64,000 nt of DNA, from contig JACTMO010000035.1 of the NCBI GenBank assembly GCA_014584605.1, positions 1 to 64,000 on the forward strand, in the 5' to 3' direction. The position numbers and the translations under genes are program-made. Of this stretch, positions 44,482 through 63,715 are shown piece after piece. The notes under the pieces are model-generated. The model was not told the DNA's origin. It did not search any database and was given only the letters and a program-made list of their open reading frames with translations. Source of the DNA: Bacteroidota bacterium (GTDB taxonomy: Bacteria; Bacteroidota; Bacteroidia; Flavobacteriales_F; PHOS-HE28). Within the stretch, counting starts at the first letter, position 1, and every line of letters begins with the position of its first letter.

Positions 44482-44491
44482 TCCACGCCGC

Positions 44492-47110: not shown

Positions 47111-47167
47111 GTCCATCCGTCGCCTCCCAACCCGCCCGGCGGCCAGTGTCACCGCAAGTCGAGGGCG

Positions 47168-47175
47168 CCAAGGTA
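47168..47175 (-). promoter_or_regulatory. Candidate -7 element (TACCTTGG)
   Basis: TACCTTGG lies about 52-58 nt upstream of the decarboxylase start. No Crp/Fnr-type box is found 33 bp upstream, unlike the elements with the same octamer at 28420 and 61398. Confidence 0.4.
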
Positions 47176-47225
47176 GCCTCCCGTCCGGACGGAGCCCGAT
47201 CGTCCACCCGTTCCCGCAGCCCCTC

Positions 47226-48047
47226 CTATCGGTTCTCCCAGCGCGGGGGACGCTTCTCCAGGAAGGCGGCGATGCCTTCGTTGGCATCGGCCGTGGCCAT
47301 CAGTTGGTCCACGTACAGCTTCTCCAACTGGGGCAGGAAGTTGGACAGTACATGGTTGAACTTCACGCGGGCGGCACGCACGGCGAAGCGCAACGAGGAG
47401 GCGCTCTTGGGCAGGATGTTCTTTACGGCCCACTCGCCCACCGCCGCATCCAGCGCGGCGCGGTCGGCGTGCACGGCATGCACCAGACCGATCTGCAGGG
47501 CCTCTTGTGCTTCGATGCTGCGCCCGGTGAGCAGCAGCTCCTCGGCGCGCGCCAGGCCGATCTTCTCGGGCAGGATGATGGAGGCCGGCGGAGGGAACAC
47601 GCCCAGCACCACCTCGGGCTGCCCCAGCTTGCCGTCGGCGGTGGCGAAGAGCACGTCGCACATCAGGGCCAGCTCCAGGCCGCCGCCCAGGCACTGGCCG
47701 CCGATCTTCGCCACGGTGGGGATGGCCAGGTCGCGCAGGGTGAGGAACAGGCCGTGGAAGGCGCGGAGCATGGCGGGTGCCGCGTCGCGCCGATGCTCCT
47801 CCACGCTGGCGCCGAAGCTGAAGTGCCGGCCCGCACCCTCGAAGGTGATCAGCTTCAATGAGCTCGTCGTGGCGAATCCATCGAGCAGTTCCTGCAGCTG
47901 CTCCATCATCCGATGGTCCAGCACATTGCCCTTGCCGTCGTCCAGGGTGATGCGGGCCACCTGCCCGCCGTGCAGCCAGGCCAGTTTCACCTTGCCCAGG
48001 TCGCGGTCCTGCTGTGCGGCCGCTGCGGCGGATGCCGTGGTGCTCAT
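47226..48047 (-). CDS. dch: Cyclohexa-1,5-diene-1-carbonyl-CoA hydratase (enoyl-CoA hydratase family)
   Basis: A 273-residue crotonase-fold protein. HFSFGASVEEH, IPTVAKIGGQCLGGGLELALMC and KLGQPEVVLGVFPPPASIILPE are the oxyanion-hole and active-site segments. The ASVEEH and FPP motifs are those I associate with the dienoyl-CoA hydratase of class I benzoyl-CoA degraders (Thauera Dch). It hydrates the cyclic dienoyl-CoA product of benzoyl-CoA reductase. It is the third gene of an operon with had and oah; its ATG overlaps the oah stop (ATGA). Assignment rests on motif plus context. Confidence 0.85.
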   Translation of the reverse strand: MSTTASAAAAAQQDRDLGKVKLAWLHGGQVARITLDDGKGNVLDHRMMEQLQELLDGFATTSSLKLITFEGAGRHFSFGASVEEHRRDAAPAMLRAFHGLFLTLRDLAIPTVAKIGGQCLGGGLELALMCDVLFATADGKLGQPEVVLGVFPPPASIILPEKIGLARAEELLLTGRSIEAQEALQIGLVHAVHADRAALDAAVGEWAVKNILPKSASSLRFAVRAARVKFNHVLSNFLPQLEKLYVDQLMATADANEGIAAFLEKRPPRWENR

Positions 48048-49147
48048 GCTTGCTCGGTTCGGTATTGGGGACTGATGGCGCGCAGCAGGTCGTCGTTCCA
48101 CGGATGGCCTTCGGCCAGCAATTGCCGCAGTTTCACGAAGTCCACCTCGCGGCGGTCCTTGGGCCCTTCATTGAAGGCCCTGAAGCCTGCACGCGCCTCG
48201 GTCATCATGTTCAGGGCGAGCCATTCGCGGCTGCTCTCCTTGTTGCGGTCCCAGTGCTCCAGTTTCTTCTTTCGGATCTCGCTGAGCGATTTGGCGGTGC
48301 AGTTGGGGAAGGTGTGCAGCAGCTTGGCGACCAGTTGGTCCACGGCGCGGTCCAGTTCGCTCAGGTCCACCGTGCCCTGCTTCAGCAGTTGCTTGCCGCG
48401 CTCGGCGTCGGCACCGGTGCGCCACTGGCCGTACACGATGTTACCCATGTCGTCCACGAAGCGGTCGGTGACCACCAACGGGTTGGGGATGAACCGACCA
48501 TCGACCTTCAGGACGGGCACGACCTCCGTGACCAGTCCGATGAACTTCGCGTAATGCGCGCTCCAGTGCTCGCAAAGGGTCAGCGATCGGGTGGCCTTGT
48601 CGTAACCCACGTAGAGGTGCAGGAAATCGGTGGAACCGCCGATGGCCGCGCTGCCGTGCTTGGGCCCGGCCTGCCCGAAGCGGGCCAGGTCGCTGGCCAC
48701 GGTGAAGTCGCAGGCCATGCCGATCTCCTGGCCGCCGGCGATGCGCATGCCGTTCACACGGTTGATCACCGGCTTGTCGCATTTCAGGATGCCGCTCACC
48801 ATATCGTTGAAGAGCCGCATGTACTGCGCGTACTCCTGCGGGTTGCCCGCGTAGTACTCGGCGTACTCCTTGGTGTTGCCTCCGGTGCAGAAGGCCTTGT
48901 CGCCAACGGCGGTGAAGACCACGGCCACCACGCTGCGGTCGTTACCGGCCTCGGCGAAGGCGGCGATCAGCTCCTTGACGGCCCCGGTGGTGTAGCTGTT
49001 GAACTGCGCGGGGTTGTTCAGGAAGATCCAGGTGGTGTAAAGGTCTTCCACGGCCGTGCCGTCCAGGTCGCGGCACGGGCGCTTCTCGAACAGGATCTCC
49101 TTGTAGTCCGTACGTGCGAGGTTGTGGTCCTTCAGTTCCGTTGCCAT
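48044..49147 (-). CDS. oah: 6-oxocyclohex-1-ene-1-carbonyl-CoA hydrolase
   Basis: A 367-residue crotonase-superfamily enzyme, longer than ordinary enoyl-CoA hydratases as expected for Oah/BamA. WIFLNNPAQFNSYTTGAVKE, DKAFCTGGNTKEYAEYYAG and RVNGMRIAGGQEIGMACDFT, with a C-terminal GHPWNDDLLRAISPQYRTEQA tail, match this family. It opens the ring by hydrolytic cleavage of a cyclic 6-oxo-enoyl-CoA to 3-hydroxypimelyl-CoA, and BamA-type genes serve as markers for anaerobic aromatic degradation. It lies 9 bp after had and overlaps dch by 4 bp. Confidence 0.92.
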   Translation of the reverse strand: MATELKDHNLARTDYKEILFEKRPCRDLDGTAVEDLYTTWIFLNNPAQFNSYTTGAVKELIAAFAEAGNDRSVVAVVFTAVGDKAFCTGGNTKEYAEYYAGNPQEYAQYMRLFNDMVSGILKCDKPVINRVNGMRIAGGQEIGMACDFTVASDLARFGQAGPKHGSAAIGGSTDFLHLYVGYDKATRSLTLCEHWSAHYAKFIGLVTEVVPVLKVDGRFIPNPLVVTDRFVDDMGNIVYGQWRTGADAERGKQLLKQGTVDLSELDRAVDQLVAKLLHTFPNCTAKSLSEIRKKKLEHWDRNKESSREWLALNMMTEARAGFRAFNEGPKDRREVDFVKLRQLLAEGHPWNDDLLRAISPQYRTEQA

Positions 49148-49156
49148 GGTTCGGGT

Positions 49157-50218
49157 TCAATCCAGGCCGGGCACGAGCACGGACCTTTTGTTGTACTTGT
49201 GCTGGAGGGTTCCTTGGAACACCTCGTTGATGTGCGAAAGGGGGAAGGTCTCCACGAAGTCACCGATGCGCAGCTTGCCGCCGGCGATCAGGTCCAGCAC
49301 CTCGGGATAGAGCTCGGCACGGCAGCCCCAGGTGCCGATGAGCTTGGCGTCGAAGGCCATCAGGTTGCTCAGACGCACCTCCACCTTGTCCATGGTGAAG
49401 CCCACGATGCTCAGGGTGCTGGCGTAGGTGATGAGGCTGAAGGCCAGGTCCTGCCCGGCGCGGGTGCCGCTGATCTCGAAGATCTTCCAGCCCAGCTTGG
49501 GTGCGCCGATCTCGCCGGCGAGCACCTTCACGCGTTCCTTCACGGCCTTCGGGTCCATGCCCCGGGTGTTGAGCGTGGCCTCCACGCCCTGGGACCTGGC
49601 GATGCCCAGTTTCTCGTCGTTGATGTCAAGCGCGATGACCTTCGCACCGAGGATGCGTGCGATGAGCGCCCCGTAGATGCCCACGCCGCCCACGCCGATC
49701 ACGATGGCCAGGTCGCCGGGCACGAGCTCCGAGCGCTTCACCACTTGATAGGGCGTGCTGATGGCATCGGCGATGACGGCCAGCTGCTCCAACGGATAGC
49801 GCGCCAGCACGGCCTCGGGCACCTCGCAGAGGAAGCGGTCCGGCACCAGGACATGCGTGGCGAAGCCCCCGTGCATGTCGTTGCCCGGCATCACCTGCCT
49901 GCGGCAGATGTTGCTGCGCCCCTTGAGGCAGAGCGTGCACTCGCCGCAGGGGAGCACGGCCGGCACGATGACGGGCCTGCCCATCCAGCGCGCATCGCCG
50001 GCCACCACCGTGCCGCTGATCTCGTGGCCCAGGGTGAGGGGCAGCGCGTGCTTGGTCTGCACACCGCTGTGCCAGAAGCTGAGGTCGGTGTGGCATACGC
50101 CGCAGCCCGCCACGCGGACCAGGGCCTCTCCGGGGCCGGGCGTGGGCAGGGGCAGCTCGTGGCGCACGAAGGGCCGGTCCGTGGCCTCCATCCTCCATTG
50201 CTGCATCGTTCCGCTCAT
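49157..50218 (-). CDS. had: 6-hydroxycyclohex-1-ene-1-carbonyl-CoA dehydrogenase
   Basis: A 353-residue zinc-dependent alcohol dehydrogenase. GCGVCHTD and GHEISGTV carry catalytic-zinc ligands, CGECTLCLKGRSNIC is the structural-zinc lobe, and IGVGGVGIYGALIARILGA is the NAD-binding loop. Position in an operon with oah and dch, in the reaction order dch-had-oah, supports the Had assignment over a generic dehydrogenase. It oxidises the hydroxy group made by Dch. The upstream region 50219-50281 holds a -7-like box and the Crp/Fnr-type palindrome at 50272-50285. Confidence 0.9.
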   Translation of the reverse strand: MSGTMQQWRMEATDRPFVRHELPLPTPGPGEALVRVAGCGVCHTDLSFWHSGVQTKHALPLTLGHEISGTVVAGDARWMGRPVIVPAVLPCGECTLCLKGRSNICRRQVMPGNDMHGGFATHVLVPDRFLCEVPEAVLARYPLEQLAVIADAISTPYQVVKRSELVPGDLAIVIGVGGVGIYGALIARILGAKVIALDINDEKLGIARSQGVEATLNTRGMDPKAVKERVKVLAGEIGAPKLGWKIFEISGTRAGQDLAFSLITYASTLSIVGFTMDKVEVRLSNLMAFDAKLIGTWGCRAELYPEVLDLIAGGKLRIGDFVETFPLSHINEVFQGTLQHKYNKRSVLVPGLD

Positions 50219-50241: not shown

Positions 50242-50285
50242 CGATCTTATCGCGGTGGCTGTTCAGGGATCATGATGTGCGTCAT
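50242..50285 (-). promoter_or_regulatory. Box 6: Crp/Fnr-type palindrome plus -7 element for had-oah-dch
   Basis: ATGATGTGCGTCAT at 50272-50285 (arms extend one bp each side) has a weak -7 candidate TAAGATCG at 50249-50242, centres 33 bp apart. The palindrome overlaps the stop codon of the preceding fusion gene (50282-50284). The -7 match is the poorest of the series. Confidence 0.55.
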
Positions 50286-52177
50286 GGAACCGTGCCGGGT
50301 GCTCCGGCCGCTCCTTCCGGACTGCCTGCGGTGACGACATCCGGACGGGCCGCTGCGCGCCGGTGATGGTCGCGTGCGATGAGGGCCGCACCGAAGGACA
50401 CGACGTATTGCGGGGCCTCCAGCACGTGCAGCTCCACCCCCAGCTTCGCCTGGAGCAGCTCGCGCAGGTAGGGGTGGTGGGCCACGACCCCTCCGATCAT
50501 CACCGTGGGGACGCCAGGCGCAAGGCGCAGCTTGGCCACCTTGCCGGCGATGCTGAGATAGATGCCACGTGCGATGTCCTCGGGCTTCATGCCGTCGAAG
50601 ATCCAGTTCATGATCTCCGTCTTGGCGAACACGGTGCAGAAACTGTTCAGCTCCTTGTCATGTGTGCTCAGGGCGGCCATCCTGCTCATCTCGCCGATCT
50701 CGATCCGGGCGCGTTCGGCGATCTCACTCAGGAAGGCACCCGTGCCGGCGGCGCACTTGTCGTTCATGTGGAAGTTCTCCACATCGCCCCGGGCATCGCA
50801 ACGGATCACCTTGATGTCCTCCCCGCCGATGTCGATGATGTTCAGCTCGCCCTGCACATGGTGCTGTACGCCGGCGGCGGCGCAGTTGATCTCGGTCTTC
50901 ACCAGGTCCGTGGCACCGAAGTGCTTGCGCCCGTATCCCGTGGCGCAGCTGTGCACGATCCGGAAGTGGGTGCTGACGGCCTTCATCACGTTGCTCACGG
51001 CCTGACGATCGGCGCCGAGGGTGGGCAGGCCGTAGCGGAAGAGCACGCGTCCGTCGCCGTCGATCACGGTGAACTTGGTGAAGGCCGAGCCCAGGTCCAC
51101 CCCCAGGAAGCAGGGCACGTCGCGGTACGCGGCCGGACCCGCGCCTTTCTCCATGAAGCCCTTGTCGAGGATCCGGCGGAAGACATCGCCCACCGGACCG
51201 GGCACGCGGGAGACGATGTTCTTGTTGGTCATGGCCTTCACCATGTTGGTGAAGGTGAGGTTGAGCGAGGTGCGCACGTAGTGCTTGCGGCCGTACTCGA
51301 CGATCTTGCCATTGAAGTGGTCGATCTCCGTGGGCCTGCCGTTGATCAGGTCCACCGCGAGGCTGGGAAAGTGGTCGCCGCCGCGCCGCAGGTAGCGCAT
51401 GCAACGGCGCGTGAAATCGTCCGGGAAGCGGATCTTCTCATGCTCGGCCACGGCCACCGCTTCGCTGATGACCTGCTCGATGAGCTCGCGCGAATCGGGG
51501 TCGTCCATCGCCTCGGCCATGGTGAGGCGGCCCACCCCGCACAGGGCGCTGAGCGAGGAGTTCAGGATGGTCTTCTCCCAGCTGCGCCGCAGCAGCTCGA
51601 AACTGTCCACCGCCTCGGTGCGCAGGCCCGCCCGGGTGAGCAGCTCGGCCAGCTCGCGCGAACGGACGCTCTGGCTGTCGTCGATGCTGCCCAGGTAATT
51701 GGGCGGCTGGTTGAAGTTGACCCGCAGGCTGTTGGGACCCGTGATGCTTCCGGCGAAGTTCACCACCATGCGCAGGGTCCGGTCGCTGCCGAAGGCCGAG
51801 GCCAGCAGCTGCTCGGTGTCGATCCCGTTCTGGGCGGAGACCACCAGGAGCCCGGGTGCGTTGAGCACCTGCGCCTCCTCGGCGGCCTCGACGGTCTGAT
51901 AGGTCTTGGTGGCGAAGAACAACACCTGGGGGCGGAAGTCCCGCAGCCCGGCGATGTCCGTCGCCACGGCGATGCCGGTGGCATGCCCTTCCACGGCGTT
52001 CTCCAGCACCAGACCGGCCTCGCTGATGCGCCGGGCGCGTGTGCCGTTGCGCACCGCCACGGCCACCTCACAGCCCGCCTCCCGGAGCTTGGTGGCCAGC
52101 ACCATGCCCACCGGCCCCAGACCGATGACACCGATCCGCGGCGCTCCTTTCAGGCTGTTGTCCGTTGTTCCCATCAT
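50282..52177 (-). CDS. Fusion of a ketopantoate-reductase-like dehydrogenase and a BcrA/D-HgdC-type ATPase
   Basis: A 631-residue protein joining two complete domains. Residues 5-330 form a 2-dehydropantoate 2-reductase (ApbA/PanE-like) domain: RIGVIGLGPVGMVLATKL for the nucleotide, SAQNGID, WEKTILNSSLSALCGV with the expected Lys, and GRPTEIDHFNGKIVEYG. Residues about 350-610 form a BadF/BcrA-type ATPase: FLGVDLGSAFTKFTVIDGDG, NIIDIGGEDIKVIR, the cluster cysteines in NDKCAAGTG (about 475) and FCTVFAKTE (about 514). All motifs for ATP-driven electron injection are present. It lies 41 bp after the lone BcrB/HgdB-type gene, so the pair may be a separate reductase. Substrate unknown. ATG 52177 or 52174 start. 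Confidence 0.88.
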   Translation of the reverse strand: MMGTTDNSLKGAPRIGVIGLGPVGMVLATKLREAGCEVAVAVRNGTRARRISEAGLVLENAVEGHATGIAVATDIAGLRDFRPQVLFFATKTYQTVEAAEEAQVLNAPGLLVVSAQNGIDTEQLLASAFGSDRTLRMVVNFAGSITGPNSLRVNFNQPPNYLGSIDDSQSVRSRELAELLTRAGLRTEAVDSFELLRRSWEKTILNSSLSALCGVGRLTMAEAMDDPDSRELIEQVISEAVAVAEHEKIRFPDDFTRRCMRYLRRGGDHFPSLAVDLINGRPTEIDHFNGKIVEYGRKHYVRTSLNLTFTNMVKAMTNKNIVSRVPGPVGDVFRRILDKGFMEKGAGPAAYRDVPCFLGVDLGSAFTKFTVIDGDGRVLFRYGLPTLGADRQAVSNVMKAVSTHFRIVHSCATGYGRKHFGATDLVKTEINCAAAGVQHHVQGELNIIDIGGEDIKVIRCDARGDVENFHMNDKCAAGTGAFLSEIAERARIEIGEMSRMAALSTHDKELNSFCTVFAKTEIMNWIFDGMKPEDIARGIYLSIAGKVAKLRLAPGVPTVMIGGVVAHHPYLRELLQAKLGVELHVLEAPQYVVSFGAALIARDHHRRAAARPDVVTAGSPEGAAGAPGTVP

Positions 52178-52218: not shown

Positions 52219-53448
52219 TCACCGCACGGGCTCCCGTTCCGCCAGCTGCTCCAGGAAGGTCTCGATGCGCGTGGTGCTCTGGCCATCGCTGAAGAAGCGC
52301 ATGTCGCACAGGTCCCCTTCGACCACCAGGGCCGGCACGCCCGAGCGTGCCTTCAGGCGCTGGGGCATGCCGAACTTGGCGTTGCTGTTGTTGAAGCAGG
52401 TCTTCGAGTCGTGGTACACGATGCCGTCGATGCGGTACTCCTCGAACCATTGCCTGAGCATGGCCATCTTGGCCTTCTCGCTCCGGTTGATGAAGATCTC
52501 GGTGTAGGCACGCGCGGTGCTCTCCCAGGGTGCCCGCTCGTCGAAACGGTCGAAGACCCAGCTGCTGCAGTAGGTGCTGGCCACCACGGCCGCATCGTTG
52601 GAGGCGAAGAGGTCGCTGAGCATGCGCAGGCGACCCCAGATGGGCATGCCCTCCCAGAAGATGCGGCTGCGCACACGGGGAAGGAAGCCGGTGCCGTTGC
52701 GCACGTTGGTCTGCAGCTCCTCCAGGAGCCCCGCGTAGTAGTCGCGTGCCTCCTGCGTGCCGCGCAGCACCACGATGGGGCCCATGTGGATGGTGCCGTC
52801 GAAGAAGCTCAGCGGCGGCGTGTCGGCGGCGCTGGTCCTGAGCACCTGCTGCCACAGGAGCGTGGCCTCCTTGCTCAGGCGCACGGTCTCGCGGAAGCGC
52901 TCCTCGTCGAAGCGCCGCCCGCTCACCTGTTCGCACACCGGCACCATGCGCTTGAACTGCGTCACCACCAGCTGCACCTCGTCGTCGCTCACCTCGTCCA
53001 GGTGGCGCGGCGGGTGGATGCCCACGATGGGGCACTTGAAGGCGTCGGCGAAGAAGCTGAACCAGTCCTCCACCTCGCGGCACTGGTTGGTGTTGTACAC
53101 GATCAGGTCGGGCCGGGGGATGCCTTCGAGCCCGTAGTGCTGGCGCAGCGGGGTCTCGTTGCGCAGGTACGCACCGATGTCGCTGGTGGTGTAGGAGCAA
53201 ACGTGGCCGCTGTAGCCGCACTTCACCGCCTCGGGGATGTGGTCCATGGCGGTGCGCGTGGCGCCGAGCAGGGCCCCGTGGTTCTCGGGGAAGTACACCT
53301 CGAAGCCGAAGGCGCGCAGCAGCTCGGCCGGCCCCACGCTGGTGCACCAGGCCACCTTGTGCGCACCGGAGCCCAGGCGCCGGAAATAGGCGCCCATCAG
53401 CTCCTTGAGCCGGGCGGTGCTGCGGATGCTGTACCCCTGCGCGGTCAT
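52219..53448 (-). CDS. Lone 2-hydroxyacyl-CoA dehydratase / benzoyl-CoA reductase-type subunit
   Basis: A 409-residue HgdB/BcrB-family protein. Candidate Fe-S cysteines occur in VAWCTSVGPAEL, KCGYSGHVCSYTTSDIG, NTNQCREVEDWF, STYCSSWVFDRF and SKTCFNNSNAKFG. It is related to BcrB/BcrC but is a single gene next to a single ATPase, unlike the BcrB-BcrC heterodimer encoded upstream. This one-subunit-one-ATPase arrangement resembles the double-cubane cluster protein and its reductase (YjiM/YjiL type), which are homodimers. The start overlaps the ligase stop by 4 bp (ATGA). It is predicted to be a low-potential reductase or dehydratase of unknown substrate. Confidence 0.82.
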   Translation of the reverse strand: MTAQGYSIRSTARLKELMGAYFRRLGSGAHKVAWCTSVGPAELLRAFGFEVYFPENHGALLGATRTAMDHIPEAVKCGYSGHVCSYTTSDIGAYLRNETPLRQHYGLEGIPRPDLIVYNTNQCREVEDWFSFFADAFKCPIVGIHPPRHLDEVSDDEVQLVVTQFKRMVPVCEQVSGRRFDEERFRETVRLSKEATLLWQQVLRTSAADTPPLSFFDGTIHMGPIVVLRGTQEARDYYAGLLEELQTNVRNGTGFLPRVRSRIFWEGMPIWGRLRMLSDLFASNDAAVVASTYCSSWVFDRFDERAPWESTARAYTEIFINRSEKAKMAMLRQWFEEYRIDGIVYHDSKTCFNNSNAKFGMPQRLKARSGVPALVVEGDLCDMRFFSDGQSTTRIETFLEQLAEREPVR

Positions 53449-55202
53449 GCCTTCCCGGTGTTGGTGACTGCGGCCTGATCGTCGAGCAGGATCACATAGG
53501 CGTCCTCCGGGGGCATCCCGGTCTCGTCGTACAGGTGGTCCAGGTGCTCGCGATAGGTCTCCAGCACCTTCACGGGCGCCACCTTCATGGAGGGCGTCAG
53601 CGTGCTCTTCTCCAGGCTGAGCTCGTCGTCGATGATCACCGCCTTGCGCACCTTGCTGAACTTCTGGCCGATGCTGCAGTTGGCGTTCTTCAGGCAGCCG
53701 CGCAGGCACTGCTGAAGCTCCTCCAGCGTGCGCGGGCAAAGGCAGCCGTCCAGCGGGGTCACGGCGTAGTCGGGGTTGTCCAGCTGGCGCCTGTTGGGAA
53801 AGAGCAGGGCCACCGGGTAGTCCTGTCCGTGGCCGCTCACCACGGCGAAGGAGACGTAGTGGCAGCTGCCCTCGATGGCGCGTTCCAGGTCGGTGGGGAT
53901 CACCTTCTCCCCGTTGCTCAGCTTGAAGATCCGGTCCTTGCGGGTGACGATGCGCAGCCCTGTGGGCCCCATCTCGCCGACATCCCCGGTGCGGAACCAG
54001 CCATCCTCGGTGAAGATGCCCGCGTTGGCCTGGTCGTTCCGGTAGTAGCCGCACATCACGTTGGGGCCCTTCACCAGCACCTCGCCGTCGGCATCGATGC
54101 GCAGTTGCACGCCGGGGATGGGCTTGCCGACCACCCCGATGGCGCGTTTCACGGCGGGGTCGGTGAGCGTGCAGCAGGGCGAGGTCTCGGTGAGGCCCCA
54201 GCCTTCGATCACGGGGATGCCGCGCCGCTCGAACTCGTCGCTGAGGCGCTGGGGCAGTGCCGCAGCGGCGGTGAAGATGAACTTCAGCCCGCCGTGGAAG
54301 AAGAGCGCACCGGTCTCCGGGCTTTCATGGCTCAGGTCCACCAGGGCCTGATACACCTTGGGCACGCTGAAGAACACCGTGGGACGCACCGCCTTCCAGT
54401 TGGCCATGATCGCGGCCGCATCACGCCCGTAGGACGACTCGAGGTACATGCACGCACCGTTGTACAGCACGCTCAACAGCTCGAATATGCCGCCGAAGCT
54501 GTGGTGCCAAGGCAGATAGGACAGGAAGCGGTCGTGCTCATCGAGCTTCCACCAGTGGGTGGCGGCGAGGGCGTCCTGCTGGGAGAGGATGTTGCGATGG
54601 CTGAGCTGCACGCACTTGGGCACGCCCATGGTGCCCGAGGTGTACATGTTGAGGCACAAGCTGTCGGGGTCCAGCGCGGTGTCCACGGCCGCACCGCCGT
54701 CCTCCGGGTGTGCGAGCAGCTCGCTGAAAGGCACGATGTCCGGGATCGGGGAGGCCCCGGCCTCCACCGGGTCGAGGGATACCACCAGCCGCAGGTCCAG
54801 GTCCGGGCCGAGCCGCTGCAACTGGGCCGCACCGGCAACGGTGAGGTGCCGGGCATCGCTGTGCCGGATCAGCAGTTCGGCCGTCTCGCGCTTGAAGTGG
54901 GCGAAGATGGGCACGGCGATGCCCCCGGTGGCCATCACGGCCAGTTCCATGCGCAGCATGTCGAGCCGGTTGGGCGAGAAGAGCAGCATCTTGTCGCCGG
55001 GAGCAAAGCCGCGGGCGCGAAGGGCCGCCGCCACGCGGGCCACGTCGGCGCCCAGCCGCCCCCACGTGGTGCTGTGCCAGGCACCTTCGGTGTCCTTCTC
55101 CGCGAACACGGGCCGGTCGGCGAAGCGCGTGGCGTTCGTGCGCAGCAGTTCGGCCACATTGCGGAAGCGCAGGGTCGGCACGGGGGCGGAAGGTGCGTTC
55201 AT
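53445..55202 (-). CDS. AMP-dependent acyl-CoA ligase (long-chain acyl-CoA synthetase type)
   Basis: A 585-residue ANL-superfamily ligase. Nucleotide loop YTSGTMGVPKCVQLSH, the adenylate motif GWGLTETSPCC, DGWFRTGDVGEMGPTGLRIV with the hinge segment, and the C-terminal Lys in KSTLTPSMKV are present. The architecture is that of long-chain acyl-CoA synthetases rather than the shorter benzoate-CoA ligases. It activates a carboxylic acid to its CoA thioester; the substrate may be an aromatic or alicyclic acid given the operon, but this is unproven. It is coupled by ATGA to the following gene and lies 12 bp after bcrD. Confidence 0.85.
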   Translation of the reverse strand: MNAPSAPVPTLRFRNVAELLRTNATRFADRPVFAEKDTEGAWHSTTWGRLGADVARVAAALRARGFAPGDKMLLFSPNRLDMLRMELAVMATGGIAVPIFAHFKRETAELLIRHSDARHLTVAGAAQLQRLGPDLDLRLVVSLDPVEAGASPIPDIVPFSELLAHPEDGGAAVDTALDPDSLCLNMYTSGTMGVPKCVQLSHRNILSQQDALAATHWWKLDEHDRFLSYLPWHHSFGGIFELLSVLYNGACMYLESSYGRDAAAIMANWKAVRPTVFFSVPKVYQALVDLSHESPETGALFFHGGLKFIFTAAAALPQRLSDEFERRGIPVIEGWGLTETSPCCTLTDPAVKRAIGVVGKPIPGVQLRIDADGEVLVKGPNVMCGYYRNDQANAGIFTEDGWFRTGDVGEMGPTGLRIVTRKDRIFKLSNGEKVIPTDLERAIEGSCHYVSFAVVSGHGQDYPVALLFPNRRQLDNPDYAVTPLDGCLCPRTLEELQQCLRGCLKNANCSIGQKFSKVRKAVIIDDELSLEKSTLTPSMKVAPVKVLETYREHLDHLYDETGMPPEDAYVILLDDQAAVTNTGKA

Positions 55203-55214
55203 GCAGCTGCGGTT

Positions 55215-56072
55215 TCAGGCCAGCACGGCCGCGGCCTTCTCCTTGATACGATGGTGGCGGAAGCCGCCCCAGAGCGCCGCACCGATGGCGCCGCTGTGGA
55301 TGGCATCGGGATGCGTCACCATCCGCAGGGGCTTCTTGCCTTCCTTGCCCAGTTCCTCCATGGCGTCCACCATGCCGATGTTCATGGCGATGCCGCCCAT
55401 CAGGGCCACGGGTTCCTGGGCCTTCAGGGAGCTGAGCAGACGGATGGATCGGTTGGCGATGGACAGGTGGATGCCCTTGATGATGTTGGGGGTGGACACC
55501 CCGCGCGACACGCTGTTGATCACGTCGGTCTCGGCCAGCACCGCGCAGATGCCCGAAGGCAGTTCGGGCTTGTCGCTCTTGAGGCTGATGGGGCCCACCT
55601 CATCGATGGAGAGGCCCAGGTAGCGCGAGATGTTCTCGATGAACTGGCCCGAACCGCTGGCGCACTGGCCGGTCATCTTGTAGTCCAGCACCCGGCCCCG
55701 CTCGTCGATGCTGATGGCCCGAACGTACAGGGCGCCCATGTCCACCACGGTGCGTGCGCCGGGGCAGAGGAAGAGGCCGCCGCGGGCATGCGTGGTCATG
55801 CTGTAGAAGTGTCCCGTCTTGCGCTCCACCAGTTCGCCCTCGCCGGTGCTGGCCAGGTAGGCGATGTCGCGGTCGTAGTCCAGCGCATTGCGTTCCAGGA
55901 CCATGGCCACGGCGTCCACCACCACGTCCTTGGGGTTGCGCTTGCGGATCTTCTCCACCTGCTTGTCGAGCAACTTGTGGTCGCCGGCGGCGTGGTCATA
56001 GCGCATCAGCACGACCTTGACGTAGCTGCCGCCGACGTCCACGCCCATGGTGAGTATGCCGTTGTCCTTCAT
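55215..56072 (-). CDS. bcrD: Benzoyl-CoA reductase ATPase subunit BcrD
   Basis: A 285-residue BadG/BcrD-type ATPase: MGVDVGGSYVKVVLM phosphate loop, YLASTGEGELV, VDMGALYVRAI, TGQCASGSGQF and SGICAVLAETDVI with the two bridging cluster cysteines, then LMGGIAMNIG. With BcrA it forms the ATP-hydrolysing activator that injects electrons at very low potential into BcrBC. Its size agrees with the short ATPase subunit of class I enzymes. Its ATG overlaps the stop of the saccharopine-dehydrogenase-like gene, which is interposed between bcrA and bcrD. Confidence 0.92.
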   Translation of the reverse strand: MKDNGILTMGVDVGGSYVKVVLMRYDHAAGDHKLLDKQVEKIRKRNPKDVVVDAVAMVLERNALDYDRDIAYLASTGEGELVERKTGHFYSMTTHARGGLFLCPGARTVVDMGALYVRAISIDERGRVLDYKMTGQCASGSGQFIENISRYLGLSIDEVGPISLKSDKPELPSGICAVLAETDVINSVSRGVSTPNIIKGIHLSIANRSIRLLSSLKAQEPVALMGGIAMNIGMVDAMEELGKEGKKPLRMVTHPDAIHSGAIGAALWGGFRHHRIKEKAAAVLA

Positions 56073-57205
56073 GTCCGTTCGATCTTATTGGTGGTGGTGC
56101 GTTGCAAACCGATGCCCTGGGTGCCCAGGTGTGCCAGCACGGCCTGGTGGCATGCCGGATCGGCGCCCAGGTGCTCGGGGGCGTTGATGCCGGAGCGGCG
56201 GAAGCGGCCTTCGGCCACCAGCAGCGCGGCCGCCATGCAGGTGTGCCCGGTGGTGCGTGCCATGGACGTGGTGCCCTGGGCATCCATGCGGTCCAGCAGG
56301 TGGTACACGTGGCGCTCGCGGTCGTCCTCCACGGTCACGCGCATCACCGTGAGGTCCTCCTCCCCCGGCCCCATCTCCCATTGTGCGAAGAGCAGGCGTG
56401 CGGTGAGCTCACGCGGCACCACCCGTGCGCCCTTCACCTCCACGGGCTCCGTGCCGAACAGGCCGGTGTGCCGCAGGGTGCGCATGCGCTCGGCATGGCC
56501 GGGGTAGCGCAGGGTCTTCTCCCGCATGAAGGGCACGTGGGGCATGGTGTCCAGCAGGGTGCGCAGGCCGTCGGTGTTGAAGGCCTCCAGCGTGCCCAGG
56601 CCGTCGAAGTCCACCGGCTCCACCTCGCTGAGGGCCTCGCGCGTCACCGCGCTGCCATGCTCCACGATCCGCGCAGGCCGCGTGTACTCCTCGATGACGT
56701 CCGCAGGACTGAAGACGGCCTTGTACTCCCAGGGCAGGTGGCGCGCGCGGGGCAGGCCGCCCACCAGGCATTCGTAGCGCAGCAGCGGCCTTTGCGCATC
56801 GTGATGCCCGGCGATGATGTTGCACAGGCCCGGCGCGACGCCGCAATCCACCACGGCGGTCACGTTCATACGGCGGGCCAGGTCATCGAGCGTGAAGGGA
56901 TCCTCGGGGAAGAAACTGATGTCCACCACATGCCGGCCCGCGCGGATGACGGTCTCGAGCGTGCGGTAGCCCAGGTGGCCGGGCACGGCGCCGATCACCA
57001 GGTCGAAGGATCCGACCAGTTGTCGCAGCGCATCGGCATCGCTCACGTCCACCTGGACGGTGCCAACGCGCGGATCGCGCGCAACGCGCTCCAGGGCCGC
57101 AGGGTCCCGGTCGGCACAGGTCACCGCGCCGCGGCCCGCAAGCCCCTGGGCGATGGTGCGACCGATGAGGCCGGCGCCCAGGACGATGACGCGCCTACCG
57201 CTCAT
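56069..57205 (-). CDS. Saccharopine-dehydrogenase-family oxidoreductase
   Basis: A 378-residue NAD(P)-dependent protein. The N-terminal Rossmann fold begins VIVLGAGLIGRTIAQGLAGRG. The DLVIGAVPGHLGYRTLETVIRAGRHVVDISFF, VVDCGVAPGLCNIIAGH and RTTGHTCMAAALLVAEGRF segments are typical of the Sacchrp_dh_NADP family. Members act on imino or amino acids; the substrate here is unknown. It is coupled by 4-bp overlaps to bcrA on one side and bcrD on the other, so its protein product is tied stoichiometrically to the reductase. This gene is not part of the standard bcrCBAD set, as far as I know. Confidence 0.82.
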   Translation of the reverse strand: MSGRRVIVLGAGLIGRTIAQGLAGRGAVTCADRDPAALERVARDPRVGTVQVDVSDADALRQLVGSFDLVIGAVPGHLGYRTLETVIRAGRHVVDISFFPEDPFTLDDLARRMNVTAVVDCGVAPGLCNIIAGHHDAQRPLLRYECLVGGLPRARHLPWEYKAVFSPADVIEEYTRPARIVEHGSAVTREALSEVEPVDFDGLGTLEAFNTDGLRTLLDTMPHVPFMREKTLRYPGHAERMRTLRHTGLFGTEPVEVKGARVVPRELTARLLFAQWEMGPGEEDLTVMRVTVEDDRERHVYHLLDRMDAQGTTSMARTTGHTCMAAALLVAEGRFRRSGINAPEHLGADPACHQAVLAHLGTQGIGLQRTTTNKIERT

Positions 57206-58602
57206 GCCATGCCTTCGTTCTCCTCGGCTCCCGCCTTGGCGCCCTTGGCGGCGGCGGGCAGGTCGGCCTTGATGTTGCGGCGGGCGAACATGGCACCGCC
57301 GAGGGCCCCCATGAAGATGGAGTCGGTGTGGACGTTGATGGTGAGGTCCTGTCCGTAGTTCCGGCGCACCATGTCGCTCACATAGTGCAGCACGGCATCG
57401 TTGCGGGCCACCCCGCCGGTGAAGGTGAACTCGTTCTTCACCCCGCCGCTGCGGGCCAGCAGCGAGAGCGCGCGCATGACGATGGCCTTGTGCAGGCCGG
57501 CCAGGATGTCCTCCCGCTTCTCGCCCACGTTGAGCAGCTCGCGTAGCTCGGCCCCGGCGAACACCGTGCAGGTGCTGCAGATGGTCACCTCCTTCTCGGC
57601 TTTCATGGCCATGGGCCCCAGCTCGTTCAGGGAGATGTTGAGCTCGTCGGCGATGTAGCCCAGGTAGCGCCCGCAGCCCGCGGCGCACCGGTCGTTCATG
57701 TGGAAGCTGGTCACCAGGCCGTGGCTGTCCACCTGGATGGCCTTGGTGTCCTGTCCGCCGATGTCGAGCACGGTGCGCGTCTTGGGGAACACGGCGTGCG
57801 CGCCGAAGGCGTGGCAGAGGATCTCGCTGCGGATGCAGTCCTCGGGGAAGGGCAGCAGCGCGCGACCGTAGCCGGTGCCCACCATGCGGGCGATGTGCAG
57901 TTCCTCATCGGCCACGCGCTCGATGACGGCGCTGAAGGCGCCTGCGGCCTCCTGGAGCGCGGCGGCCTCGGCGGCGGGGAGCGTCGCCGTATGGTGCTTC
58001 GCCAGCATGGCCTGCGTCTGTTGCACCAGCTCGCGGAAGTCGGGCGCCATCATCTCGTTCTCCACCGGGGTGATGCTCTTGTCGAAGAGCAGCATCAGGG
58101 GCTCGAACAGCTCCTTGGACCGGGTCTCCACGGCCTTGGCGTAAGCTTCGCCCACGATGTCGCGGAAGAACTGGCCCTTGCCGCCCAGGTCCTCGTCCAT
58201 GTACCGCCGCCGTACGGTGGACAGGATGCCGTCCACGATCTCCTGCACATGCTTCACCAGCTCGGTGGCCGGCACGCGCGTCTCGACCGCCAGCGCGGTC
58301 CGTGACAGCTCGTCCCGCAGACGCTCCAGCCGGCTCTCGAATTGCACGAACTGGAAGGCGGCGTCGAGGTCGGCGGCGTAGCGCGCGTAGGCAGGCCGGT
58401 TCGCGATCGCCTCGGCGAGCGACTGCTTCAGCAGGTGGAAACGTGCGTTGTACAGCGCCTGCACCTTGGCGATCTCGGCGGCCACCTCGTAGTTGGCGCG
58501 CGTGTTGGTGATGCCCTTGCCGACCACTTCATCGCGTTCGTTGATGATGATGGCCTTGCTGGTGGTGGAACCCAGGTCGATGCCGAGGAAGTATTCTGCC
58601 AT
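57202..58602 (-). CDS. bcrA: Benzoyl-CoA reductase ATPase subunit BcrA
   Basis: A 466-residue BadF/BcrA-type ATPase: FLGIDLGSTTSKAIIINER phosphate loop, a helical insertion (about 35-210), VGTGYGRALLPFPEDC, TVLDIGGQDTKAIQV, the cysteine pair in NDRCAAGCGRYLGYI and ICSTCTVFAGAEL, and FTGGVARNDAV. It is longer than BcrD because of the insertion, as in the class I family. It pairs with BcrD. The C-terminus (KGAKAGAEENEGMA) is flexible. bcrB lies 25 bp upstream. The gene order here is C-B-A-(saccharopine-type)-D. Confidence 0.93.
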   Translation of the reverse strand: MAEYFLGIDLGSTTSKAIIINERDEVVGKGITNTRANYEVAAEIAKVQALYNARFHLLKQSLAEAIANRPAYARYAADLDAAFQFVQFESRLERLRDELSRTALAVETRVPATELVKHVQEIVDGILSTVRRRYMDEDLGGKGQFFRDIVGEAYAKAVETRSKELFEPLMLLFDKSITPVENEMMAPDFRELVQQTQAMLAKHHTATLPAAEAAALQEAAGAFSAVIERVADEELHIARMVGTGYGRALLPFPEDCIRSEILCHAFGAHAVFPKTRTVLDIGGQDTKAIQVDSHGLVTSFHMNDRCAAGCGRYLGYIADELNISLNELGPMAMKAEKEVTICSTCTVFAGAELRELLNVGEKREDILAGLHKAIVMRALSLLARSGGVKNEFTFTGGVARNDAVLHYVSDMVRRNYGQDLTINVHTDSIFMGALGGAMFARRNIKADLPAAAKGAKAGAEENEGMA

Positions 58603-58627: not shown

Positions 58628-59917
58628 TCAGACGCTGGCGAGCACCTTGCGCTGGGCCAGCATCTGGAAGAAGGAATCCAGGCGGTTCTTGATGTTGGAG
58701 TACGAGAAGTAGCGCGGGTCCACCAGATCGCTCTCGATGAAGCCCACGGGGATCTCCAGCTTGTCCTCCAGGTCGCGCATGATCATGAGCTGGCCCGCGC
58801 TGAAGCTGTTGCAGCTTTTGATCGAGTTGATCAGGAACCCGTCGGCCTGGTACTCGGTGATGCACTTGCCCAGCAGGTCGATACGCTGGGGCAGGTTCAT
58901 ATTGGTGTAGCAGTTCATGCAGTACTCGGCCAGGGTCTCCAGCGGCCGTGCGGGATCATGCCGGAAGCCCAGGTCGTACACGCCGCCCACCTTGGTGTAG
59001 CTGCTGGCCACGATCACGGCGCCCTGATCGTGGAACAGCTTCCAGAACTCCCGGAAGCTGGTCCAGTTGGGCGGGCCTTCCACCACCAGGCGGTACTTCT
59101 CCTCCTTGATCTCGCCCTCGGGGGTCACCGGCCCCTTGCCTTCGGCCGCACGCTGCTTGATCTCCTTGAGCAGCTCCTCGTAGTAGGTGACGGCCTCCGC
59201 CGTGCCGCGGAAGCCGATGTTGATGGGCCCGATGTAGTACACCCCGGCGAAGTAGGCGTCGATGGGCGAGGGGCGCTGCTTGCTCTGCGCGAAGATCTCG
59301 GTGATCAGGTCGTCGGTGCGCTTGCTGTTCGCCAGGATGGCCGCCAGGCGGGCCTCATCGAACTTCTTCCCGGAGACCTTCTCGAACTTGGGGATCACCT
59401 CCTCGCGCAGCTGCTTCACCATGTACTGCCGCATCTCGTCGGTGATGCGCCCACCCTCCTGGTAGGGGGTGTGCAGCATGGCGATCTCGGCATTGGGGTA
59501 GAGCCGTTCCAGGTTCTCGAACCACTTCATGAAGGTGAAGCAGCCCGTGTAGCTCAACAGCAGCAGGTCGGGCTCGGGCAGCTTCTGTCCCGTGGGCCCC
59601 ACGTTGCCGTTGAGCATCATGCCGATGTCGCACTTCACGTAGGTGCATACGTCCTCGCTGTGGCCCCATTTCTCCGCATCGCGGATGAAGGCCGCGCTCT
59701 TCTTGCGCATGCCGCTCTGCAGGGCGTTGATCTCCGGGTACACCGGCAGCATGTCGAAGGCGCGGATCAGCTCCGAGAGGTTGCCGGGCACGAAGGTGTA
59801 CACCACCTTGCGGCCCTTCTCGCGCGCGGTGGCGAGCTCCTCGAAGAGGCCCTCGACCATCTGCTTCTGCATGATCATGCTGCGCTCCTTCTCTACGGGG
59901 GCTGCTTGCTTTGCCAT
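58628..59917 (-). CDS. bcrB: Benzoyl-CoA reductase catalytic subunit BcrB
   Basis: A 429-residue 2-hydroxyacyl-CoA dehydratase-family protein. FVPGNLSELIRAFDMLPVYPE, HSEDVCTYVKCDIG and SYTGCFTFMKWF provide likely cluster and substrate residues; AEYCMNCYTNMNLPQ and SIKSCNSFSAGQL are further Cys-containing segments. BcrB and BcrC form the heterodimer that reduces the aromatic ring of benzoyl-CoA to a cyclic diene-CoA using electrons from BcrAD. It begins 33 bp after bcrC and precedes bcrA by 25 bp. Length is in the range of class I BcrB proteins. Confidence 0.93.
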   Translation of the reverse strand: MAKQAAPVEKERSMIMQKQMVEGLFEELATAREKGRKVVYTFVPGNLSELIRAFDMLPVYPEINALQSGMRKKSAAFIRDAEKWGHSEDVCTYVKCDIGMMLNGNVGPTGQKLPEPDLLLLSYTGCFTFMKWFENLERLYPNAEIAMLHTPYQEGGRITDEMRQYMVKQLREEVIPKFEKVSGKKFDEARLAAILANSKRTDDLITEIFAQSKQRPSPIDAYFAGVYYIGPINIGFRGTAEAVTYYEELLKEIKQRAAEGKGPVTPEGEIKEEKYRLVVEGPPNWTSFREFWKLFHDQGAVIVASSYTKVGGVYDLGFRHDPARPLETLAEYCMNCYTNMNLPQRIDLLGKCITEYQADGFLINSIKSCNSFSAGQLMIMRDLEDKLEIPVGFIESDLVDPRYFSYSNIKNRLDSFFQMLAQRKVLASV

Positions 59918-59950: not shown

Positions 59951-61132
59951 TCAGGCGGTGGCGGTCTCGCCCTCCCACAGCTTGATGCTGTCGGCGAAGG
60001 CACCCACCTGCTCCTTGATCACTTTGAACTGTCCGGTGTTCTCGTTGTACTGGAACTGCACGTAGCGCACGCCGTCCTTCTCACACTGGTGGAAATAGAG
60101 GGGCTGGTCCAGCAGGGCCGGATCGCAGAAGCTGGGCGCGGCGAACAGCAGACCATCGGCGCCACGGCGCCGTGCCAGGTCCAGCAGGCGTTTCTCCTTG
60201 GGCCGGCCCACGTCGTACACCACGCTGCTCTGCACGCTGCGGGTGAGGTAGGCGTCCGCGATGGCCGCCAGGGGGTCGCCGCTCCCCGCCCCAACCGCAC
60301 CATCGATCCAGCGTGAACCCAACAGGAAGTCGTCGTCCACCACATAGCAGCCGGCCCCCTCGATGGTCTTGATGAGGCCCAGCGGCGGTTGCTCGCAGAA
60401 GGCGCCGGCCACCACCACCTTGATGCGGTCCTCCGGCACGCCCCGCTCCCGCCCGATGGCCTCCAGCACCTGCTCCAGCATGAGGTTGTGCTCCTCGACG
60501 GGCATCGCCAGCCCGGCGCGCATGATGCAGTACAGGTCCTCGTACGCCAGGCGCCACGGATGTTCCTGCCGGATGTCGTAGATGGCCGCCAGCATCGCGC
60601 GGTTCCGGTCGTACAGCGCGATGGAGCGGTCCAGCATCTCCGCGGTGACCTTCACCCCGTTGATGGCTTCGATGCGCTGGAGCACGTCCTCCATCTCCGC
60701 CTTGTAGAACGAACCGCCGATCTCCCGGCGGAAGTTCTGCGGGAAGTCCATGTACTTGGCGAAACGGCCCTTGCCCATCAGCTGGAACATGCCGCTCAGG
60801 TTCCGCATCACGTCGCAGATGCTGGGGAACACGAAGCCGTCGAACCCGTCCAGGTTCCCGTCCAGCGCCATCTCCACGATGCCGCGCGGCATGTGGCAGA
60901 TGTAGGACTGGTAGTACGCGTCGCCCTTGATGATGGGCTTGCGGTCGCCCGCACCAAGAATGCCCACGGCCAGGCCCTTGGCCGCATGCACCACCTCCCG
61001 TGGAAAGTAGATGGGGGTGAACCCGACCAGCACGCGCTGCGGGTCCGCCGCCTTCCACTCCTTCGCCCGGTTGAAGTTCAGGTCGAAGGCCAACTGGCGG
61101 CAGGTGCTGATGATCTCGTCGATGGGCGTCAT
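59951..61132 (-). CDS. bcrC: Benzoyl-CoA reductase catalytic subunit BcrC
   Basis: A 393-residue 2-hydroxyacyl-CoA dehydratase-family subunit. TPIYFPREVVHAAKGLAVG, SYICHMPRGIVEMAL, DGFVFPSICDVMRNLSG and VVAGAFCEQPPLGLI are conserved, with Cys ligands in the last three. It pairs with BcrB as the catalytic half. It is the first gene of an eight-gene minus-strand operon reaching 50282. Start ATG 61132 is preceded by the FNR-type palindrome and -7 box in 61199-61242. The downstream order bcrC-B-A-D matches that known from Thauera, apart from the insertion. Confidence 0.93.
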   Translation of the reverse strand: MTPIDEIISTCRQLAFDLNFNRAKEWKAADPQRVLVGFTPIYFPREVVHAAKGLAVGILGAGDRKPIIKGDAYYQSYICHMPRGIVEMALDGNLDGFDGFVFPSICDVMRNLSGMFQLMGKGRFAKYMDFPQNFRREIGGSFYKAEMEDVLQRIEAINGVKVTAEMLDRSIALYDRNRAMLAAIYDIRQEHPWRLAYEDLYCIMRAGLAMPVEEHNLMLEQVLEAIGRERGVPEDRIKVVVAGAFCEQPPLGLIKTIEGAGCYVVDDDFLLGSRWIDGAVGAGSGDPLAAIADAYLTRSVQSSVVYDVGRPKEKRLLDLARRRGADGLLFAAPSFCDPALLDQPLYFHQCEKDGVRYVQFQYNENTGQFKVIKEQVGAFADSIKLWEGETATA

Positions 61133-61429: not shown

Positions 61430-62032
61430 ATGTACGCTGCACCCACCCCGGCCTGTGTGATCCTCGCAGGGGGAACATCCACCCGGATGGGCCGCCCCAA
61501 GGCGCTGCTGGAGGCCGGTGATGGAAGGACCTTTCTGGAGCGCATCGTCGCCACCTACCGTCAGGCGGGCATCCACAGGATCATCGTGGTGTTGAACGGT
61601 GCACTGCTCGAAGGCATGGCCGGCCGGCTCGCACGATCGCCCGGCTTGCAGGTGCTGCCCAACCTTGAGCCGGATCTGGGCAAGTGGCACAGCCTGCGCC
61701 TGGGCATGGCCGCCGTACGCGATGCGGACCACTGCTTCCTTCAGCACATCGACCAACCCGATGTGGATCCGGCGACGCTCCACGCCCTTCGCGAAGCGGC
61801 CACCCCTGACGGCTACGCCGTACCCGTGCAGGTCGGCCGCGCAGGGCATCCCGTCCTGCTCCCGAACCGCATCATCCGGCGACTGGCCGCCTTGCGGACC
61901 GACACCCACCTGCGCGAGCTGCTGCGGGACCATCCGCGCACGGAGGTACCGGTGGACGATCCCCGATGCCTGAATAACATCAACACCCCGGAGGAATACG
62001 CCGCCTACCGGGCAACGGCCGTCGCGCCATGA
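61430..62032 (+). CDS. mocA: MocA/MobA-like molybdenum cofactor nucleotidyltransferase
   Basis: A 200-residue NTP transferase: VILAGGTSTRMGRPKALLEAG is the nucleotide-binding signature, HIDQPDVDPATLHALRE contains the metal-binding Asp, and GRAGHPVLLPNRIIRRL and NNINTPEEYA match the MobA/MocA fold. In loci with xdhC, members usually make molybdopterin cytosine dinucleotide for xanthine-oxidase-family enzymes. A guanylyltransferase role cannot be excluded from these motifs. It is first in an operon with xdhC (3 bp apart), an SDR and a [2Fe-2S] subunit. Confidence 0.85.
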   Translation: MYAAPTPACVILAGGTSTRMGRPKALLEAGDGRTFLERIVATYRQAGIHRIIVVLNGALLEGMAGRLARSPGLQVLPNLEPDLGKWHSLRLGMAAVRDADHCFLQHIDQPDVDPATLHALREAATPDGYAVPVQVGRAGHPVLLPNRIIRRLAALRTDTHLRELLRDHPRTEVPVDDPRCLNNINTPEEYAAYRATAVAP

Positions 62033-62035
62033 ACC

Positions 62036-62824
62036 ATGGACCAGCTGTACCGCACGATCGGCAGGGCCATGGACGCCGGGAGGATCGCGGCCGTGTGTAC
62101 CGTGGTGGACACGCGGGGCTCCACCCCGCGCAAGACGGGCAGCAAGATGCTGGTGCACGAGGACGGCCGCATCGTGGGTTCCATCGGCGGAGGTGCATTG
62201 GAGAAGCGGGTGATCGCCGATGCCCTGGCGGTGATCGCCAGCCGCACGCCGCAACTGTTCAAGCACGACCTGTTGCACCAGCACGGCATGTGTTGCGGCG
62301 GCAGCGTCCACATCTTCATTGAGCCCGTGGGACACCAGCCGCGCCTGTTCATCTTCGGCGCCGGGCACACCGGCCGCGCCCTGGCGCGCTACGCGCTGGA
62401 TGCCGGGTTCGAACCCTACGTGATCGACGACCGGAGGGAGCACCTGGCCCTGCTGGACGACGAGCGGGTGCAGCGCATGCCCCTCGGTCACCGCCAGGCC
62501 CTGCAGGCCGTCCGCTTCGACGACCGGTCCTACATCGCCATCATGACCTACGACCACGCCATCGACCGCGAGGTGCTGGCGCATTGCATCACGCGCCCCT
62601 TCGCCTATCTGGGCATGATGGGCAGCCGCCGCAAGGTGGAGCTCACCCGCAAGCACTTCCTCGAAGGCGGCATCGCCACGGCGGAGGAGCTGGAGCGCGT
62701 GGACATGCCCATCGGCGTGGAGATCGCCGCGCACACCCCCGAGGAGATCGCCATCAGCATCGTGGCACGCCTGATCCAGGTGAAGAACACCCGCAACCTG
62801 AGCACCGCATGCATCCCCGCATAG
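62036..62824 (+). CDS. xdhC: XdhC-family molybdoenzyme maturation protein
   Basis: A 262-residue protein. The N-terminal XdhC_CoxI domain has VCTVVDTRGSTPRKTGSKM, GGGALEKRVI and MCCGGSVHIFIEP. The C-terminal Rossmann-like domain begins LFIFGAGHTGRALARYAL and ends FAYLGMMGSRRKVELTRK and GVEIAAHTPEEIAISI. XdhC inserts or sulfurates the molybdenum cofactor of xanthine-dehydrogenase-family enzymes. It overlaps the SDR gene by 16 bp and lies 3 bp after mocA, so both serve the molybdo-hydroxylase whose [2Fe-2S] subunit begins at 63716. Confidence 0.9.
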   Translation: MDQLYRTIGRAMDAGRIAAVCTVVDTRGSTPRKTGSKMLVHEDGRIVGSIGGGALEKRVIADALAVIASRTPQLFKHDLLHQHGMCCGGSVHIFIEPVGHQPRLFIFGAGHTGRALARYALDAGFEPYVIDDRREHLALLDDERVQRMPLGHRQALQAVRFDDRSYIAIMTYDHAIDREVLAHCITRPFAYLGMMGSRRKVELTRKHFLEGGIATAEELERVDMPIGVEIAAHTPEEIAISIVARLIQVKNTRNLSTACIPA

Positions 62825-63543: not shown

Positions 63544-63553
63544 TGGGGGGCAA

Positions 63554-63590
63554 GTGAGAAAGTGAGAGAGTGAGAGAGTGAGAGAGTGAA
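63554..63590. repeat. Short tandem repeat (GTGAGAGA)n in a purine-rich tract
   Basis: One GTGAGAAA unit is followed by three exact GTGAGAGA octamers (63562-63585) and a degenerate fifth unit, starting 11 bp after the SDR stop. The surrounding 63540-63650 is almost entirely purine on the plus strand. Such repeats can slip; this one lies 126 bp upstream of the molybdo-hydroxylase subunit start. Confidence 0.85.
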
Positions 63591-63715
63591 AATGGGGAGA
63601 ATGAAGAAAAGGATGCAAAGAGGGAGAACGATAACAGGGGCAAGGTGATGTCATCGACCGCACGACCGCGCGGGGCGTATGGCCCTGCTGTCCGCAACGC
63701 ATGGAGCGAATGCAC

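Follow-up and report, generated by a model that had tools for sequence, protein, structure and literature searches.

Why would an oxidoreductase of the ketopantoate reductase type and an ATP-dependent activase be encoded as one protein? The question is raised by a minus-strand gene of the window, as we call the whole 64,000-nucleotide stretch of a Bacteroidota contig analysed here. A previous sequence-only reading had described this gene as one uninterrupted frame for a full dehydrogenase followed by a full BadF/HgdC-type ATPase, a combination thought to be new and to suggest a direct link between the two activities.

Domains and predicted structure of the fusion protein

The frame starts with ATG at 52177, with AAGGAG just 5′ of it, and ends with the stop codon at 50284–50282; there are zero internal stops, and the coordinates given by the earlier reading were exact. 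The gene and its parts are:

50282..52177, minus strand: ApbA–activase fusion gene, 631 aa, single frame
51692..52138, minus strand: ApbA N-terminal Rossmann domain, aa 14–162, GLGPVG dinucleotide motif (Pfam ApbA)
51230..51592, minus strand: ApbA C-terminal domain, aa 196–316, with K202, N206, S272 and E284 (Pfam ApbA_C)
51119..51226, minus strand: linker, aa 318–353, partly of low confidence in the structure model
50375..51106, minus strand: BcrAD_BadFG activase domain, aa 358–601, DLGS, GGED and GGV motifs, cluster cysteines C475 and C514

Pfam matches were obtained for ApbA (aa 15–162, 4e-20), ApbA_C (4.5e-30) and BcrAD_BadFG (7.9e-35), and the protein passed the NCBIfam models apbA_panE (170.5 bits, cutoff 141) and TIGR00241 for acyl-CoA dehydratase activases (164 bits, cutoff 125). 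The ApbA half carries a GxGxxG motif and exceeds the cutoff of both Pfam domains, as is the case for 2-oxoacid reductases of the ApbA/PanE type. Its catalytic Lys, Asn, Ser and Glu are present in alignment with PDB relatives and include the active-site lysine (K202) and the GRPTEID motif (with E284) named earlier. The two cluster cysteines claimed for the ATPase were likewise found: C475 and C514 align with the cysteines of HgdC and HadI that hold the bridging [4Fe-4S] cluster. Among 39 aligned fusion sequences N117, K202, N206, S272, E284, C475 and C514 are invariant. The phosphate motif (aa 451–454, window 50816–50827) reads GGED in all fused and separate-gene activases aligned, in contrast to GGQD in HgdC, HadI, MbdQ and DCCP-R. 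These sequence features confirm the predicted combination of a complete ketopantoate-reductase-type (ApbA) oxidoreductase with a complete 2-hydroxyacyl-CoA dehydratase activase.

An AlphaFold2 model of the protein had a mean pLDDT of 83 and a pTM of 0.52 with a low-confidence stretch at residues 318–326; each domain is therefore credible, while the model does not fix their mutual orientation. Foldseek placed the C-terminal half next to MbdQ, HadI and HgdC, and the closest PDB sequence match of this domain was MbdQ of 3-methylbenzoyl-CoA reductase. Neighbours of the N-terminal half were ketopantoate reductases and D-mandelate dehydrogenases. Fold and catalytic residues are shared with such enzymes (3wfi, 3hwr), but identity amounts to just 20–25%, and the N-terminal half is fused to an activase and unlinked to pan genes.

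Occurrence of fused and separate genes

The whole fusion was found in an open frame through the domain junction in 8 further related genomes (92–48% identity); in the fragmented genome G015 it lies in pieces at contig ends. Contigs of GTDB contained 224 stretches encoding relatives, and all of the best 80 of these 224 loci showed the fused architecture (80/80, 93–51% identity). As the junction is open in both sets, a frameshift artefact or a chimeric assembly was ruled out, in accordance with the earlier claim. The best 80 loci belong mostly to Bacteroidota MAGs; a few are labelled Ignavibacteriae, Calditrichota, Chlorobiota, Acidobacteriota or Competibacteraceae. The locus is also present in L067 and L079, MAGs labelled Competibacteraceae and Thermoanaerobaculia, which are nested among Bacteroidota in the tree of the neighbouring dehydratase subunit HgdB3 (see below); either misbinning or transfer would account for this placement.

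The fusion is common inside its clade, with at least 80 genomes. No description was found in the open-access papers searched, and none of the NCBIfam models and PDB entries spans both halves. It is a real and conserved domain fusion that has apparently not been described. Among 294 genomes of one class, strong HGD-D proteins occurred in 23, of which 17 contained parts of the cassette. Within one genus the fusion locus is confined to a minority of genomes, and the copy of its member G013 is only 48% identical to that of the window genome, which points to horizontal transfer.

ApbA and activase are encoded by separate genes in 8 related genomes, adjacent in two. In these two, G493 and G505, ApbA and the adjoining activase are divided by a stop codon and roughly 60 bases of spacer; the frames differ, and the operon order is that of the fused loci. 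Gene order is ApbA, HgdB3, activase in G457, and in G348 ApbA and activase are separated by a two-gene 4-hydroxybenzoyl-CoA-reductase-like unit. A single contig of G577 encodes, in this order, an ADP-forming synthetase, HgdB3, ApbA, a HisC-like aminotransferase, a second ApbA, Mo-cofactor genes, an oxoacid oxidoreductase, 4-hydroxybenzoyl-CoA-reductase-like genes, the activase and Had. The same gene set is spread over two contigs in G602; the positions of ApbA, activase and Mo enzyme in G569 match those in G577, and in G214 the pieces of the cassette lie on separate contigs. In the HgdB3 tree all separate-gene rows are found on the same side of a single branch (support 84/73). This is consistent with one putative fusion event, although a tree whose root is unsure because of long outgroup branches does not prove whether the fused or the separate state is ancestral.

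As separate genes for both proteins are found in loci of this type (G348, G493, G505, G577, G602, G457), the proposed link of dehydrogenase and activase is supported at the pathway level. Direct electron coupling, substrate channelling or nucleotide sensing, as suggested earlier, found no such support: the model leaves the domain orientation undefined, and the gene arrangements agree better with two steps in one pathway than with a single coupled reaction. The two fused enzymes probably work in the same pathway.

The benzoyl-CoA locus and the HadB-type neighbour

The fusion gene lies within a predicted class I benzoyl-CoA reductase (BCR) locus, in which the minus-strand genes are ordered bcrC, bcrB, bcrA, saccharopine-dehydrogenase-like gene, bcrD, ligase, HgdB3, fusion, had, oah, dch:

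61430..64000, plus strand: divergent MobA-like, XdhC and SDR genes, then a 4-hydroxybenzoyl-CoA-reductase-like Mo subunit (profile matches) extending past the window end (contig C71 64262–66493)
59951..61117, minus strand: BcrC, TIGR02263 above cutoff, start inferred
58628..59917, minus strand: BcrB, TIGR02260 above cutoff
57202..58602, minus strand: BcrA, TIGR02259 441 bits, under its cutoff of 578
56069..57205, minus strand: saccharopine-dehydrogenase-like gene between bcrA and bcrD, absent from most loci
55215..56072, minus strand: BcrD, TIGR02261 above cutoff
53445..55202, minus strand: AMP-forming acyl-CoA ligase (domain and NCBIfam profiles)
52219..53448, minus strand: HgdB3, HadB-type 2-hydroxyacyl-CoA dehydratase alpha-like subunit (profile and PDB matches, residues)
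49157..50218, minus strand: Had, 6-hydroxycyclohex-1-ene-1-carbonyl-CoA dehydrogenase, TIGR03201 above cutoff
48044..49147, minus strand: Oah-type ring hydrolase, conserved neighbour, named from sequence and position
47226..48047, minus strand: Dch-type dienoyl-CoA hydratase, conserved neighbour, named from sequence and position, start inferred
45632–47287: PLP-dependent decarboxylase (PF00282) at the end of the gene row, adjoining the locus solely in this genome and its nearest relative G024

Directly upstream of the fusion, HgdB3 or a ligase C-terminal domain is encoded in 76 of the best 80 GTDB loci. Among the 48 loci longer than 20 kb, 47 contain HgdB3 and BcrD and 45 contain BcrA, BcrB and BcrC. 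Frequent further neighbours in about 86 loci are thiolase (58), hydratase/dehydrogenase proteins (30 and 14), XdhC/MobA (26), ADP-forming acyl-CoA synthetase (25) and Mo-hydroxylase (14). A TIGR03194-like (4-hydroxybenzoyl-CoA-reductase-like) gene was present in all 20 cassette genomes tested, scoring 784–968 bits against a curated cutoff of 994 bits that no match reached; 10 congeners lacking the cassette scored 0–290 bits and did not have it. About 24 loci have an ADP-forming synthetase in place of the ligase; in these, a small separate protein encoded between HgdB3 and the fusion corresponds to the ligase C-terminal domain only (AMP-binding_C_3; e.g. L078 9409–9903, L112 9416–9916). The fusion occurs in many uncultured Bacteroidota predicted to degrade aromatic rings anaerobically.

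The best profile of HgdB3 was the alpha subunit HadB of (R)-2-hydroxyisocaproyl-CoA dehydratase (1.6e-59), with PDB match 3o3m. Residues equivalent to S37, E55, C84, C117, H341 and C346 of HadB are kept in all those of 86 HgdB3 sequences that cover the sites, whereas BcrB of the window is without the equivalents of S37 and H341. HgdB3 hence shows the three cluster cysteines, Ser37 and Glu55 of the HadBC alpha subunit; we take S37 and E55 of HadB to have a catalytic meaning. The three-cysteine pattern is the known active-site cluster pattern of the dehydratase family (PMC11971306).

A candidate partner was sought among the HGD-D proteins of this genome and most relatives. Only BcrB, BcrC and HgdB3 were found, and no HadC-type beta subunit encoded elsewhere. 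HgdB3 may act as a homodimer, although to our knowledge the known 2-hydroxyacyl-CoA dehydratases are heterodimers. The double-cubane cluster protein and its reductase (DCCP, DCCP-R; 7yyl matched), a dehydratase-type protein of one gene served by one activase, are a precedent for the absence of a second subunit; HgdB3 differs in reaching only 65 bits on the double-cubane model (cutoff 350) and in its three-cysteine HadB pattern.

Class I benzoyl-CoA reductases (BcrCBAD, BzdNOPQ, MbdONPQ) have the superfamily and the locus in common with the proteins described here. We judge it unlikely that HgdB3 and the fused activase form an extra aromatic-ring reductase with BcrC for substituted benzoyl-CoAs, with ApbA as accessory or NAD(P)H sensor. 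The constant vicinity of Bcr, the lack of another encoded partner and the top match of the activase to MbdQ would suit such a function, but the active-site residues of HgdB3 are of the HadB and not the BcrB type. Moreover, G577 and G569 have a resident BCR of the bzd type, whose BzdN shares just 24% identity with BcrC, and their HgdB3 is nevertheless 63% identical to that of the window and unchanged in type, which makes a dedicated HgdB3–BcrC pairing unlikely. An extra BcrA or BcrD copy was ruled out by scores of the fusion far below the equivalog cutoffs for BcrA, BcrD and BzdQ (TIGR02259, 98 of 578 bits; TIGR02261, 66 of 313; TIGR03192, 85 of 380). With BcrA and BcrD encoded by separate genes, the fused activase is a third activase beside its own HadB-type gene and not that of the BCR. 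Membership in the reductase should accordingly not be assumed for BcrA-like ‘third’ genes beside a Bcr cluster. An excerpted account of the Geobacter benzoate island (PMC1924859) includes an orphan activase and no ApbA–activase cassette.

A candidate route from aromatic oxoacids to benzoyl-CoA

Judged by sequence and gene context, the fusion is best understood as a putative variant of the module that activates 2-hydroxyacyl-CoA dehydratases, and its most likely role would be in feeding phenylalanine- or tyrosine-type oxoacids to benzoyl-CoA breakdown. We lean slightly towards a bifunctional protein of a module that converts aromatic 2-oxoacids to enoyl-CoA compounds for this breakdown. The ApbA domain would reduce phenylpyruvate or 4-hydroxyphenylpyruvate, derived from Phe or Tyr, to the aryllactate with NAD(P)H, and the neighbouring ligase (the ADP-forming synthetase in other lineages) would yield aryllactyl-CoA. 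The fused activase would hydrolyse ATP and pass one electron to HgdB3, which would eliminate water to give cinnamoyl- or 4-coumaroyl-CoA. Subsequently, the chain could be shortened to (4-hydroxy)benzoyl-CoA by hydratase/dehydrogenase and thiolase (beta-oxidation), the hydroxyl be removed by the 4-hydroxybenzoyl-CoA-reductase-like Mo enzyme and the ring be opened by Bcr, Dch, Had and Oah. Substrate, direction and step order are all inferred, the aryl oxoacid from the constant benzoyl-CoA context, the aminotransferase of G577 and the 4-hydroxybenzoyl-CoA-reductase-like gene. Conversion of phenylpyruvate to benzoyl-CoA via dehydration of phenyllactyl-CoA is proposed chemistry in another organism (PMC13416013). 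Expression of benzoyl-CoA genes together with peptidases and peptide uptake is reported for a Flavobacteriales MAG, described as a peptide user (PMC8099898).

Like roles are combined in ldhA-hadA-hadI-hadBC of Clostridioides difficile leucine fermentation, which comprises a 2-hydroxyacid dehydrogenase, CoA attachment, an activator and a HadB-type subunit; ldhA and hadA presumably complete the clostridial hadI-hadBC set. HadB and HadI ranked first or close to first among the PDB sequence matches of HgdB3 and the activase, respectively. In contrast to the clostridial system, the dehydrogenase here belongs to the ApbA family and is fused to the activator, a ligase takes the place of the CoA-transferase, HadC is missing and the locus is one of benzoyl-CoA degradation. 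The phenyllactate dehydratase of Clostridium sporogenes (FldABC, FldI), cited in PMC13416013, resembles the proposed module in chemistry, aryllactyl-CoA to cinnamoyl-CoA. FldABC is a heterotrimer of a CoA-transferase and two dehydratase subunits acting in fermentation, whereas a ligase and one subunit would act in catabolism here.

Several observations speak against an aryl-oxoacid module. A HadC-type beta subunit beside HgdB3 is lacking in most cassette genomes, no arylpyruvate-specific gene was found within the window, the aminotransferase linkage is confined to the lineage of G214, G577 and G602, and the TIGR03194 matches stay under the curated score. Products of the pimelyl type, too, require hydratase and thiolase genes. 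In L053 (9941–13091) and L054 a thiolase follows the fusion, and the flanks examined contain neither HgdB3 nor Bcr genes. Finally, the reaction of the ApbA domain could run towards oxidation. The domain would then oxidise an aromatic 2-hydroxyacid of the mandelate type to a 2-oxoacid, from which an oxoacid:ferredoxin oxidoreductase would form the aroyl-CoA, and activase and HgdB3 would serve another reductive step. This sequence of reactions is in line with the D-mandelate dehydrogenases among the fold neighbours of ApbA and with oxoacid:ferredoxin oxidoreductase genes in at least 11 of the about 86 loci. We nevertheless regard it as improbable: the constant ligase and the HadB-type dehydratase would have no obvious function in it, dehydration of mandelyl-CoA would require a beta-hydrogen that this compound lacks, and the aminotransferase linkage in G577 suggests oxoacids derived from amino acids.

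Tentatively, and with rather little confidence, one can extend the oxoacid-to-enoyl-CoA module to a two-step catalyst in which aryllactate made by the reductase, or the redox state of the reductase, directly controls the firing of the activase toward a homodimeric dehydratase; this would constitute a one-subunit 2-hydroxyacyl-CoA dehydratase branch supplying the benzoyl-CoA pathway of Bacteroidota from aromatic amino acids. Very unlikely is a mere gating of the activase by the ApbA domain, with NAD(P)H or oxoacid binding signalling redox state or substrate supply: the fusion itself and the flexible linker would agree with it, but the catalytic residues are invariant in all 39 sequences, which is unusual in a pure sensor, and separate-gene versions occur. 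That the ApbA domain serves this organism as the ketopantoate reductase for pantothenate synthesis, fused by chance, is extremely improbable and contradicted by the congeners. In its favour, the fusion is the sole ApbA_C protein of this genome, in which panB is present. Against it, ApbA_C occurs in only 6 of 39 genus members, all six at the fusion locus, and five congeners have the fusion as their only ApbA; 33 of 39 are without ApbA_C, yet panB is found in 36 of 39. Nor did the loci show a conserved association with pan genes.

In the open-access papers found, Bacteroidota are little discussed as users of benzoyl-CoA reductase. If the oxoacid-to-enoyl-CoA module is correct, they would possess a route from Phe and Tyr to anaerobic benzoyl-CoA breakdown via aryllactyl-CoA and cinnamoyl-CoA, with a dehydratase lacking an evident second subunit. 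For MAGs of anoxic water and bioreactors that live on peptides, it would also yield a prediction at the level of genes, and the fusion would be a marker gene for the pathway.

Elsewhere in the window (29626–33150 and 43774–45499), a nitrate-respiring host is suggested by a large molybdopterin oxidoreductase that resembles nitrate reductases by eye, by a hemerythrin-domain protein and by a gene that appears MoaA-like by eye.
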